Of a stretch of 64,000 bases of DNA, positions 44,472 through 48,310 are shown in pieces. How positions within the stretch are numbered: position 1 is the stretch's first letter; each line of letters begins with the position of its first letter. The position numbers were made by a program, and so were the translations under genes. The DNA is from an uncultured Mucilaginibacter sp. (GTDB taxonomy: Bacteria; Bacteroidota; Bacteroidia; Sphingobacteriales; Sphingobacteriaceae): assembly GCA_913775265.1 (NCBI GenBank), contig CAJYJH010000078.1, forward strand, positions 90,342 through 154,341. The letters run 5' to 3'. The notes beneath the pieces were generated by a model. The model saw nothing but the letters and a program-made list of their open reading frames with translations, made no database searches and was not told where the DNA came from.

Positions 44472-44501
44472 TTTGCAGCGTAATATTTCTTTCTATATTT
44501 G
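44472..44501 (+). promoter_or_regulatory. trp operon promoter
   Basis: TTTG at 44472-44475 and TATATTTG at 44494-44501 are separated by 18 bases, a near-ideal Bacteroidota promoter. It precedes the trp leader peptide ATG (44513) by only a dozen bases, so the leader mRNA has a very short 5' end. Confidence 0.75.
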
Positions 44502-44512
44502 CCTTTGTATAT

Positions 44513-44557
44513 ATGACAAAACAATTACATAATCTTGGCTGGTGGCACCTTATTTAA
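44513..44557 (+). CDS. trpL: trp leader peptide
   Basis: A 14-residue open frame: MTKQLHNLGWWHLI, stop TAA at 44555-44557. It contains two adjacent Trp codons (44540-44545), the mark of ribosome-mediated attenuation at trp operons. It lies between the trp promoter and an attenuator hairpin, followed by trpE. Too short to be found by length filters. The function in control is inferred from the layout. Confidence 0.85.
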   Translation: MTKQLHNLGWWHLI

Positions 44558-44560
44558 ATG

Positions 44561-44643
44561 AGCCCGGTAAGTTTATGAATTAAAAAGATTAAGCAATTAT
44601 AAACCTGATTTGAGACCCGGCGCCAACCACGCCGGGTTTTTTT
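44561..44643 (+). promoter_or_regulatory. trp attenuator (terminator hairpin and competing pairing)
   Basis: ACCCGGCG (44615-44622) and CGCCGGGT (44630-44637) form an 8-bp hairpin followed by T7 ending at 44643, directly before trpE. AGCCCGG at 44561-44567 can instead pair with CCGGGTT at 44633-44639 (one G-U), which would remove the terminator. A ribosome stalled at the Trp codons leaves 44561 free; one at the leader stop would cover it. Confidence 0.8.
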
Positions 44644-44664
44644 ATGGATATTTGTGAACCATTT

Positions 44665-46077
44665 ATGCAAAAGTTTAAACTACATACCAACTATAAAAAA
44701 CTACTTGCCGATACGACTACCCCGGTAAGCATCTACCTGCGCTTGCGCGATATATTCCCTAATTCGTTATTGCTGGAGAGTTCTGATTATCACAGCCGCG
44801 ATAACAGCTTAAGCTATATATGCTGCGAACCTATCGCCGGTTTGGTTTTAAACCAGGGCGAGTTGCGTGAACAATATCCAGACGGCAACGAGGAGTTTTT
44901 CGCCGCAGGTCAGTTTAATTTGGTAAATCAGATTGATGCTTTTTTAAAGCGATTTGAGGCTGATACGCTACCGCTCAAGGTAATTAGCAGTGGTTTGTTT
45001 GGTTATTTTACACACGAGGCAGTGGAGCATTATGAAACTATCACCTTAAAAAAAATAGCTGACGACCCGCGGCGGGTACCCGAAATGCAATACCACATTT
45101 ACCGGTACATCATCGCTATAGATCATTTTAAAAATGAACTTTACATATTCGAAAACCATTTTGGCGAAACGGCTGCCGACAGCGATGGTATCGAAAAGAT
45201 GCAGTACCTGCTAAAGAATAAGGATTTTCCGGAATACTATTTTCAAACTAAAAATACAGAGCAATCCAACCTAACCGACGAAGGTTTCATGGCCATTGTC
45301 GAAAAAATGAAGCAGCACATTTATCGCGGCGACGTTTTTCAAATTGTGCCGTCGCGTGCTTTTTCGCAAGCCTTTGCCGGTGATGAGTTTAACGTGTACC
45401 GTGCCCTGCGCTCGATCAATCCATCACCTTATTTGTTTTACTTTGACTATGGCGATTTCCGAATCTTTGGTTCATCGCCCGAAGCTCAGATTACGATCAA
45501 AAATAGGGTGGCCAGCATTTATCCAATTGCAGGAACCTTTAAACGCACAGGTAACGACGAGAAGGATGCCGAAGCGGCTAAAGCGCTCGAAAATGATCCG
45601 AAAGAATCGGCTGAGCATGTGATGCTGGTTGATTTGGCCCGTAACGATTTAAGCCGCCATTGCGAGCAGGTAGCGGTTAAGGCGTTTAAGCAAGTACAGT
45701 ATTACTCACATTTAATACACTTGGTTTCGCATGTGAGTGGTAAATTGAAACCCAATGTTTCTTCATTTAAAATCGTAGCTGATACTTTTCCGGCCGGTAC
45801 GCTGAGCGGTGCGCCCAAATTCAGGGCGATGGAGATTATTGATGAGAACGAAAACATCAAACGTAGCTTTTACAGCGGTGCTATCGGTTACCTGGGCTTT
45901 AACGGCGATTTTAACCATGCTATTATGATCCGCTCGTTATTGAGTAAAAACGGTGTGTTGCATTACCAGGCCGGTGCCGGTATTGTAGCAGATTCGGTTG
46001 CCGAAAGCGAACTTAACGAGGTAAATAATAAAGTTGCTGCCCTTCGCAAAGCCATCGAGACAGCTCAGGAATTGTAA
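44665..46077 (+). CDS. trpE: Anthranilate synthase component I
   Basis: Converts chorismate and glutamine-derived ammonia to anthranilate, the first step to tryptophan. A 470-residue protein from ATG 44665; an in-frame ATG at 44644 touches the attenuator T-run and gives an extra 7 residues. LLESSDYHS near residue 35 is the tryptophan feedback-site type motif. The chorismate-binding domain shows IVPSRAFSQ, PSPYLFYFDYGDF, GSSPEA, PIAGTFKRT, DLARND and DTFPAGTLSGAPKF. First gene of the attenuated operon. Confidence 0.97.
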   Translation: MQKFKLHTNYKKLLADTTTPVSIYLRLRDIFPNSLLLESSDYHSRDNSLSYICCEPIAGLVLNQGELREQYPDGNEEFFAAGQFNLVNQIDAFLKRFEADTLPLKVISSGLFGYFTHEAVEHYETITLKKIADDPRRVPEMQYHIYRYIIAIDHFKNELYIFENHFGETAADSDGIEKMQYLLKNKDFPEYYFQTKNTEQSNLTDEGFMAIVEKMKQHIYRGDVFQIVPSRAFSQAFAGDEFNVYRALRSINPSPYLFYFDYGDFRIFGSSPEAQITIKNRVASIYPIAGTFKRTGNDEKDAEAAKALENDPKESAEHVMLVDLARNDLSRHCEQVAVKAFKQVQYYSHLIHLVSHVSGKLKPNVSSFKIVADTFPAGTLSGAPKFRAMEIIDENENIKRSFYSGAIGYLGFNGDFNHAIMIRSLLSKNGVLHYQAGAGIVADSVAESELNEVNNKVAALRKAIETAQEL

Positions 46078-46125: not shown

Positions 46126-46794
46126 ATGAATAATACAGACGGTAAAGTGGCCACAGAAAATAAAGGTGCAGGCAAAATTCTGATTGTAGATAATTACGAC
46201 TCGTTTACCTATAACCTGGTGCATTTAATTAACGAATTGGGCCTGGAGTGTGAAGTATGGCGTAACGACCAGTTTAAGCTGGAAGATATAGCGCAGTTTG
46301 ATAAAATTATTTTGTCGCCGGGGCCGGGCATTCCGTCCGAGGCTGGTTTATTGCTGGATGTGATCAGGGCTTACGCACCAACAAAAAGCATATTTGGTGT
46401 TTGCTTGGGCCAGCAGGCTATAGCCGAGGTTTTTGGCGGTAGCTTATATAACCTGAGCAGACCAATGCATGGCATTGCCACGCCTGTAAAGGTAACAGAC
46501 GCCACCGAGGCACTATTTACTGGCTTGCCCGAGCAAATCAACGTTGGGCGTTACCATTCGTGGGTAGTTTCGAAAGATGGTTTGCCTGATGAACTGGTGG
46601 TTACCGCTATCGATGAGAAAGATAACTCCATTATGGCTTTGCGTCATAAAACGTTGGATGTACGTGGTGTACAGTTTCACCCCGAATCGGTACTCACCGA
46701 ATACGGTAAAGAAATGATGCGTAACTGGTTGAATATACCAGCAAGCGGTTCTAAAGAAAAACAGGCTGCATCTACCGAAGAAAATTTATATTAA
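46126..46794 (+). CDS. trpG: Anthranilate synthase component II (glutamine amidotransferase)
   Basis: A 222-residue class-I glutamine amidotransferase supplying ammonia to TrpE. The catalytic Cys is in FGVCLGQQAI and the His-Glu pair in GVQFHPESVLTEYG. ILSPGPGIPSEAG is the TrpG/PabA-type signature. It follows trpE by 48 bases. The first 16 residues are an unusual hydrophilic extension; a later start is possible but no strong RBS argues for it. It could also serve PabB; context favours trp. Confidence 0.95.
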   Translation: MNNTDGKVATENKGAGKILIVDNYDSFTYNLVHLINELGLECEVWRNDQFKLEDIAQFDKIILSPGPGIPSEAGLLLDVIRAYAPTKSIFGVCLGQQAIAEVFGGSLYNLSRPMHGIATPVKVTDATEALFTGLPEQINVGRYHSWVVSKDGLPDELVVTAIDEKDNSIMALRHKTLDVRGVQFHPESVLTEYGKEMMRNWLNIPASGSKEKQAASTEENLY

Positions 46795-46848: not shown

Positions 46849-47634
46849 ATGACGATATTAGATAAAATAGTACAGCGTAAAAAGAAAGAGGTAGTAGCTT
46901 CTAAAATGGTGACCTCCTATACGCAGTTAGAAGAACGCGAATTATTTTTAAGAGAACCGCTTTCGTTCCGCGATTTTCTGCTCGACCCGGATCGTACCGG
47001 TATTATTGCGGAGTTTAAGCGCAAATCGCCATCAAAGGGTATCATTAACGACGAGGTTAAAGTTCGCGAAGTAACTAAGGCTTACGAACAGGCGGGCGCT
47101 TCGGCGTTGTCGGTATTAACCGACCGAAACTTTTTTGGAGGTAGTAAGACCGATTTGCTTACGGCTGCTCGTTTCTGTTATGTGCCCATTTTGCGCAAGG
47201 ATTTCATGATTGATGAGTACCAGATTGTGGAAGCCAAGACACTGGGGGCGGATATCATTTTATTAATTGCGGCTATACTCACGCCGGCCGAGATAAAACA
47301 GTTTGCTGGCTTGGCCAAAAGCATAGGGCTTAACGTGTTGCTCGAGGTGCATAACTTGGAAGAACTGGAGCGTAGCCTGGATGATAACGTTGATGCAGTA
47401 GGAGTTAACAACCGTAACCTGGCAGATTTCACTGTATCAGTCGAAAACTCGTTCCGCTTGGTTGAGTATATTCCTGATAATTTCCTAAAAATATCTGAAA
47501 GCGCCATCAGTAACCCTGAAACTATCAAACAACTCAAGGCGGTTGGTTTTAACGGATTTTTGATAGGTGAAAACTTTATGCGCCAAGCCGATCCGGGCGC
47601 AGCAATGGAAGCCTTTGTAAGTGAATTGAAATAG
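46849..47634 (+). CDS. trpC: Indole-3-glycerol phosphate synthase
   Basis: A 261-residue TIM-barrel enzyme closing the indole ring. Key motifs are IIAEFKRKSPSKG (catalytic Lys/Glu area), LSVLTDRNFFGGS, LRKDFMIDEYQ, AVGVNNRNL and SESAIS with a phosphate-binding GFLIGENFM. It comes directly after trpG with a 54-base gap. trpD, normally between or next to these, is absent from the window. It is not fused to trpF. Confidence 0.96.
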   Translation: MTILDKIVQRKKKEVVASKMVTSYTQLEERELFLREPLSFRDFLLDPDRTGIIAEFKRKSPSKGIINDEVKVREVTKAYEQAGASALSVLTDRNFFGGSKTDLLTAARFCYVPILRKDFMIDEYQIVEAKTLGADIILLIAAILTPAEIKQFAGLAKSIGLNVLLEVHNLEELERSLDDNVDAVGVNNRNLADFTVSVENSFRLVEYIPDNFLKISESAISNPETIKQLKAVGFNGFLIGENFMRQADPGAAMEAFVSELK

Positions 47635-47710: not shown

Positions 47711-48310
47711 GTGAGCGAAAGAACCATTTTAAAACTGCAACTGCCGACTGATCCGCGTTGGGTAACCAACGTGGTGGAGAGTAACATTGAAGAAATATTA
47801 ACTGACCATGCTTTTTGTGAGCAAAAGGCTGCCAGTAATGCCATCACACTGATTGTACAAAACCCAAACCTGAGCGATCTGGTGCAGGAAATGGCCTTAC
47901 TGGTGCAGGAAGAAATGGATCACTTTAAACGTGTTCACGATATTATTTTGGCCCGTGGCTATGTATTAGGCCGTGAGCGTAAAGATGATTATGTAGGCGA
48001 ACTGCTTAAGTTTATGAAAAAGGGTGGCAGCCGCGAAGAACAGCTGATAGACCGCCTGCTTTTTGCAGCCATGATTGAGGCCCGCAGCTGCGAACGTTTT
48101 AAAGTAATGTCAGAAAATATAAAAGATGCTGAGCTGGCTGCCTTTTATCATGAACTGATGATTAGTGAGGCTACGCATTACACCACGTTTATCCGCCTGG
48201 CAAAAAAATATGCCGGTAAGATTGATGTAGACGGCCGTTGGAATGCCTTTTTAGCATACGAAGCTGAAGTGATTAAGAACTACGGTAAAAAGGAAACGAT
48301 ACACGGTTAA
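47711..48310 (+). CDS. miaE: tRNA 2-methylthio-N6-isopentenyladenosine-37 hydroxylase
   Basis: A 199-residue non-haem diiron enzyme that hydroxylates the isopentenyl group of ms2i6A at tRNA position 37, next to the anticodon of UNN-reading tRNAs including tRNA-Trp. LPTDPRWV at the N-terminus is typical. The ferritin-like four-helix ligands appear as FCEQKAASNA, QEEMDHFKRV (ExxH), EARSCERF and SEATHYTTF (ExxH). GTG at 47711 is the only reasonable start, as no Met occurs in the first 20 residues. It lies 76 bases after trpC and may be co-transcribed. Confidence 0.92.
   Translation: MSERTILKLQLPTDPRWVTNVVESNIEEILTDHAFCEQKAASNAITLIVQNPNLSDLVQEMALLVQEEMDHFKRVHDIILARGYVLGRERKDDYVGELLKFMKKGGSREEQLIDRLLFAAMIEARSCERFKVMSENIKDAELAAFYHELMISEATHYTTFIRLAKKYAGKIDVDGRWNAFLAYEAEVIKNYGKKETIHG

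Follow-up and report, generated by a model that had tools for sequence, protein, structure and literature searches.

A predicted ribosome-mediated transcription attenuator with tandem Trp codons upstream of trpE-trpG-trpC in a Mucilaginibacter genome

The trp leader of E. coli encodes a peptide of 14 residues with two adjacent Trp codons, and its RNA comprises strands 1 to 4. The edge of the E. coli ribosome lies about 15 nucleotides from the P site, and this value was assumed for the stall and stop positions discussed below. Attenuators were reportedly predicted in several phyla, Bacteroidetes/Chlorobi included, by Vitreschak et al. in 2004, and predictions in several phyla are also said to have been made by Lopatovskaya et al. 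in 2010. For Bacteroidetes, excerpts of Weinberg et al. (2010; PMC2864571) describe the Rfam family RF01692 (Bacteroid-trp) as the Trp peptide leader of this group, and excerpts of a transcriptome study of Flavobacterium psychrophilum report strong indications of attenuation by leader peptides upstream of amino-acid operons (PMC9723704). In Sinorhizobium meliloti, according to the available part of PMC7298713, a 14-residue trpL leader is carried on a leaderless mRNA and trpLE(G) and trpDC are separate, much as in the genome considered here. A literature search, with most subscription journals outside its coverage, brought up no study that tests Trp attenuation experimentally in Bacteroidota.

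The stretch of DNA analysed in this work (64 kb, referred to as the window) carries a Trp leader before trpE. An initial annotation had placed a promoter, a 14-residue leader peptide with two adjacent Trp residues (WW) and a hairpin with seven T residues between positions 44472 and 44664. All of the attenuator elements claimed for this region are present, each located in the sequence as listed here together with the genes that follow.

44472..44475, + strand: −33 element of the Bacteroidetes sigma-A promoter, TTTG (read from the sequence; motif described in the part of PMC7366714 available)
44494..44501, + strand: −7 element, TATATTTG, with a predicted transcription start at about 44506
44513..44557, + strand: leader peptide ORF, MTKQLHNLGWWHLI plus stop, 14 residues, with the ATG at 44513 and the TAA at 44555-44557
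44540..44545, + strand: tandem Trp codons TGG TGG, the putative stall site, within strand 1 (sequence, alignment)
44562..44568, + strand: core of strand 2, the antiterminator strand, GCCCGGT (minimum free energy (MFE) fold of the stalled-ribosome case; covariation)
44571..44604, + strand: inner stem of the antiterminator, 44571-44578 with 44597-44604 (folding, alignment)
44615..44622, + strand: strand 3, the 5' arm of the terminator, ACCCGGCG (folding)
44630..44637, + strand: strand 4, the 3' arm of the terminator, CGCCGGGT (folding)
44637..44643, + strand: run of seven T residues (sequence)
44615..44643, + strand: the whole intrinsic terminator, between the leader and trpE
44665..46077, + strand: trpE (Pfam PF00425, PF04715)
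46126..46794, + strand: trpG (TIGR00566 above cut-off; PF00117)
46849..47634, + strand: trpC (NF001377 above cut-off; PF00218)

The mRNA had initially been taken to start about a dozen bases before the leader ATG. The predicted 5' untranslated region (UTR) is about 7 nucleotides rather than a dozen, because the sigma-A box is taken to lie at −12 to −5, which puts the start near 44506. The conserved start of trpE is probably at 44665 and not at the in-frame ATG at 44644, as full-length matches in relatives mostly start at query residues 5-11 and the ATG at 44644 abuts the T run. By TrpE, the nearest relatives that bear a name belong to Mucilaginibacter: M. galii and M. aquatilis (88% identity). 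Directly 3' of trpC, at 47711-48310, lies a gene for a MiaE-like tRNA hydroxylase (PF06175). Its pairing with trpC was considered as a possible tRNA-Trp modification link and was rejected, as the pair occurred in none of the 80 related loci, a number of which stop within trpC or soon after it.

As in the E. coli type of trp attenuator, there is a 14-residue WW leader with strands 1 to 4. The window differs from that type in its Bacteroidetes promoter, in the scant room left for a Shine-Dalgarno sequence and in the lack of a TrpR match. RF01692, by our own reading of its alignment, also resembles the window in having a start codon, a run of Trp codons, a hairpin and strand 3 before trpE. Nevertheless, when compared with RF01692 (cut-off 49 bits), neither the window nor the rest of the source genome gave a match at the thresholds used. 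A search of the whole window against Rfam at gathering thresholds returned one tRNA only; the best match of the window otherwise, by both score and E-value, was RF00513 (Trp_leader), at 24.6 bits with an E-value of 0.003 to 0.005, which does not reach the gathering threshold of 41 bits. Among 198 genomes of the class, RF01692 scored above its cut-off in eight, none of them in family f1, in a search with stricter filters by which weak matches may be lost. The RF01692 matches in genomes G170, G174, G178, G202 and G206 coincide with trpE leaders found by protein search. As RF01692 already covers Bacteroidetes, the kind of attenuator is not new. The novelty implied by the earlier remark that such systems were studied mainly in Proteobacteria is therefore weaker than stated, given RF01692 and the Flavobacterium clues; this lineage's version is, however, missed by public RNA models. 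The observation is confirmed, and the locus, very probably a real attenuator, is ordinary in mechanism with lineage-specific features.

Very probably, the leader acts as a ribosome-mediated transcription attenuator of trpE-trpG-trpC; its start site, the stall and the regulation by Trp are inferred, as are the ribosome edges, which follow E. coli. Transcription would begin at about 44506, and a ribosome would load seven bases downstream, at the leader ATG. When charged tRNA-Trp is scarce, this ribosome would stall at the Trp codons (44540-44545) with its front edge near 44555, leaving strand 2 (44562-44568) free; this strand would pair with strand 3 (44615-44621) ahead of the synthesis of strand 4, and transcription would read through to trpE. 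When Trp is ample, the ribosome would reach the stop codon at 44555-44557 and mask strand 2, allowing strands 3 and 4 to form the terminator. If there is no translation, strand 1 would pair with strand 2, and this too would lead to termination.

The segment that would be free with the ribosome stalled at the Trp codons, 44556-44622, has as its MFE structure the antiterminator GCC.GGU:ACC.GGC (−9.7 kcal/mol), in which 44562-44568 is paired to 44615-44621 with a C-C mismatch in between. The inner stem of the antiterminator overlaps a TAAACC block (44600-44605) that is conserved in the genus. With the ribosome at the stop codon, the free segment (44570-44643) folds into the terminator. The terminator also wins when strand 4 is included in the stalled case (44556-44643), so that read-through would require prior formation of the 2:3 duplex. 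The terminator fold, at −18.2 kcal/mol, was equalled by none of 500 shuffles. Shuffles as stable as the native sequence numbered 47 of 500 for the 2:3 (antiterminator) region and 323 of 500 for the 1:2 region, and the whole leader gave a z-score of −1.43, with 19 of 200 shuffles equally low. Taken by itself, the window gives weak competing folds that do not clearly outdo shuffles, and it is comparative evidence that carries the competing pairing. Such weak folds might point to a constitutive terminator that lets a fixed share of transcripts through to trpE, with the WW leader as a relic. However, lineages that have diverged elsewhere in the sequence still share the Trp codons, the distance from these to strand 2 and both the 1:2 and the 2:3 pairing, which makes a fixed-ratio terminator highly unlikely.

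ATG-started ORFs of 8-45 amino acids that carry WW number four in the 64 kb window when both strands are counted, and among them only the MTKQLHNLGWWHLI ORF has a terminator scoring at least 18 behind it. The 80 related loci (1.007 Mb, both strands), which come mostly from Mucilaginibacter, with some from Pedobacter, one from Hufsiella and a few from Bacteroidetes MAGs, hold 103 WW ORFs; 75 have a strong terminator, and all 75 lie just upstream of trpE. A pattern scan for sigma-70 promoters and terminators gave no excess over its shuffles, and the terminator at 44615-44643 was absent from its list.

Every one of the 109 places read before trpE, from 108 genomes of the family, holds a leader with Trp codons. 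These genomes come from 151 searched, 147 of which had a match, some of those left unread having only a weak PabB-like match. The leader carries WW or WWW in 85 places, at least two Trp codons without WW in 22, a single Trp codon in one (L022) and Trp codons one residue apart (W.W) in one more (L096, outside the scan and located later). W.W is also the arrangement in 19 of the 22 leaders without WW, the Trp codons being far apart in L020, L021 and L108; in L020-L022, one Trp codon only is found at the stall place. The scan recorded a terminator in 107 of the 109 family places. A check of the leader frame in relatives, suggested with the initial annotation, found it kept: a WW or W.W leader occurs in all 80 related loci, and none of 70 aligned leaders departs from the ATG or the TGGTGG, the remaining peptide being variable. 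These 70 are the window plus 69 from genus loci, leaving out L193, which has a bulged terminator, and three identical sequences.

Outside the family, at the class level, 39 of 43 genomes were read (the four omitted had weak matches only), and all 39 have a WW leader, with a terminator by scan in 38. The sequences collected here could serve to widen RF01692, which was found in 8 of 198 class genomes compared with 39 of 39 by protein-anchored search, the two samples overlapping only in part. Beyond the class, in a hand-chosen, non-random sample of 25 genomes (one to four per family), WW was found in 15, with a terminator by scan in 14; L155 has W.W and a terminator, and L173 is doubtful. No leader was found in 8 of the 25, namely three of f16, one each of f11, f17, f27 and f29, and one of two f28 genomes. 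In the f16 genomes, which belong to one family of the phylum (L172, L176 and L177), the 500 bases read upstream of trpE contain neither a WW nor a W.W leader.

The strand 2 motif could be located in 68 of the 70 aligned sequences, and in 67 of these it lies 22-27 nucleotides from the first Trp codon; one motif distance, 8 nucleotides, probably reflects a misplaced match. With ribosome edges as in E. coli, this conserved spacing would suit a stall that leaves strand 2 free. Leader length in the same set ranges from 14 to 28. The stop codon of the window's leader lies 7 nucleotides before the strand 2 motif, and in 67 other sequences it lies 2-34 nucleotides after the motif, making the window leader the shortest and most deviant of the set.

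Covariation was assessed by drawing one sequence from each of 39 lineages and permuting the partners 20000 times. The 2:3 duplex gave z-scores of −6.6 to −7.7 in six draws, with 0 of 20000 permutations as low each time, and strand 2 gave −5.6 to −7.2 when the whole hairpin was used as its partner. For the 1:2 duplex, z-scores were −8.1 to −9.6 in three draws (0 of 20000 as low). The control pairing, 1:3, gave +0.7, −0.3 and −1.5 in three draws, with 15374, 7445 and 1250 of 20000 permutations as low. Out-of-family tests leave out L134, L166, L173 and the leaderless genomes, and L106 is also left out of the within-family 1:2 test. Thus, the two exclusive structures proposed in the initial annotation gain comparative backing, as 1:2 and 2:3 covary across the 39 lineages and 1:3 does not, which supports mutually exclusive 1:2, 2:3 and 3:4 pairings. 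Sequence and comparison together establish the elements and how well these are conserved, along with the covariation of 1:2 and of 2:3.

Within the family, tests were run on 107 sequences, leaving out L081 and L096 (terminator score below 12, or outside the scan). The MFE structure joins strand 2 to strand 3 in 97 of them, and strand-2 duplexes were better than mononucleotide shuffles at p ≤ 0.05 in 62. A sequence's own strand 3 beat the mean of foreign strands in 55 of 107 only, the mean strand-2 duplex energy being −9.3 kcal/mol with own and −8.0 kcal/mol with foreign strands. Folds of the antiterminator region had a mean z-score of −0.89 and were significant in 25 of 107. In group f4 (the MKTILNNTWWWNNLRQSS type, e.g. 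L116, L120 and L123), the antiterminator duplex runs on through the terminator loop into the first part of the 3' arm, so that a test of the 5' arm only undercounts this group. Five of ten RF01692 matches fall in f4, with a duplex reaching the loop and the 3' arm, whereas the window uses the 5' arm. A different antiterminator is seen in L110, in which GCGACAAG is paired with CTTGTCGC.

Conservation also bears on the possibility that the terminated leader RNA or peptide works mainly in trans, by analogy with rnTrpL and peTrpL of S. meliloti. The predicted transcript is short and nearly leaderless, resembling rnTrpL as described in the accessible part of PMC7298713, and action towards trpD would suit the split regulon: the trp genes are divided, with trpD on another contig (C68). 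According to the same partial source, the leader sRNA of S. meliloti is reported to act in trans on trpDC mRNA and to lower its stability, whereas here trpD has its own attenuator, which makes a trans link unnecessary, and the peptide beyond WW is poorly conserved. A mainly trans-acting leader is hence a very improbable account. Even less probable, to the point of being nearly negligible, is a switch independent of translation, in which the structures would be flipped either by a protein that binds Trp, as TRAP does, or by an RNA aptamer of the T-box kind: no match to the TrpR or TRAP families was found in the 13 genomes in which they were sought, while the control genomes were positive, and the tRNA was the window's only Rfam match at gathering thresholds. 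Attenuation by a translating ribosome is the reading that we retain.

trpD is preceded by a second Trp leader, MNIQNNNWWWLNE, at L301:2616-2657 (minus strand), with a different terminator. In the family, 30 of the 73 genomes with a trpD match were read; 28 of these have a WW or W.W leader and 26 a terminator scoring at least 12.

The short distance between promoter and leader is shared by the trpE leaders of relatives. Of 107 family sequences, 91 have TAnnTTTG within 60 nucleotides upstream of the leader, at a median of 7 nucleotides from the ATG, compared with 9 of 321 control windows, and it precedes the leader in 79 of the 80 related loci, at 3-13 and most often 8 nucleotides. In F. psychrophilum this box is placed at −12 to −5 in the excerpts available of PMC9723704; read by this rule, the box-to-ATG distance in the relatives would give a 5' UTR of about 3-4 nucleotides. 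The predicted 5' UTR is about 12-16 nucleotides in 12 of 18 f4 sequences and 0-3 in the other six, compared with 7 in the window. In the portions of the sources at hand, 5' UTRs below 10 nucleotides make up about 3.7% in Bacteroides thetaiotaomicron (PMC7366714), leaderless mRNAs make up 5.5% in F. psychrophilum, and Flavobacterium mRNAs are reported to be without Shine-Dalgarno sequences (both PMC9723704). By eye, a −7-like box lies about 13 nucleotides before the trpD leader and about 29 nucleotides before the his leader of the same genome; the short distance is thus no rule for all leaders of this genome.

Further leaders in the source genome are a Thr/Ile-rich one before thrA (MIFNSTIIITIITIGTALGGR, L321:905-970) and a Phe/Tyr-rich one before pheA (MKLNNAFGFGFYYFYFSSKSRD, L317:1335-1403), each with a strong terminator. 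Among the genus loci read, terminators precede thrA in three of three and pheA in five of five. We tentatively propose, as a reading that we hold nearly as probable as its contrary, that the nearly leaderless trp leader, with a 5' UTR of a few nucleotides predicted family-wide, drives attenuation by initiation at the 5' end, and that it belongs to a set of four or more terminator-linked attenuators (trpE, trpD, thrA and pheA) which replace the missing TrpR and need tight coupling of transcription and translation in Bacteroidota. The attenuator set and the short UTR are of more interest than the trpE site itself. If the trpE leader works as described: Trp control in much of Bacteroidota would depend on coupled transcription-translation; translation of the leader peptide would here begin within a few bases of the 5' end without help from a Shine-Dalgarno sequence; and coupling in Bacteroidota would become testable by a simple reporter.

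The source genome also has a His-rich leader before hisG (MNGITLHHLHMHHRPCGDND, L262:1227-1289), and a His leader was found in eight of eight readable genus loci, a ninth (L267) being cut by the contig end. No strong terminator was seen before hisG in the genus loci, the best score being 13.6 (L269) with no real T run; hisG loci of three other families (L259-L261) have terminators scoring 19.3 to 26.8. A leader before ilvD was sought in 10 loci, and none was recognised in the source genome (L272). Among these 10 loci, L274 alone has a strong terminator, which lies behind an ORF containing Leu and Val codons.
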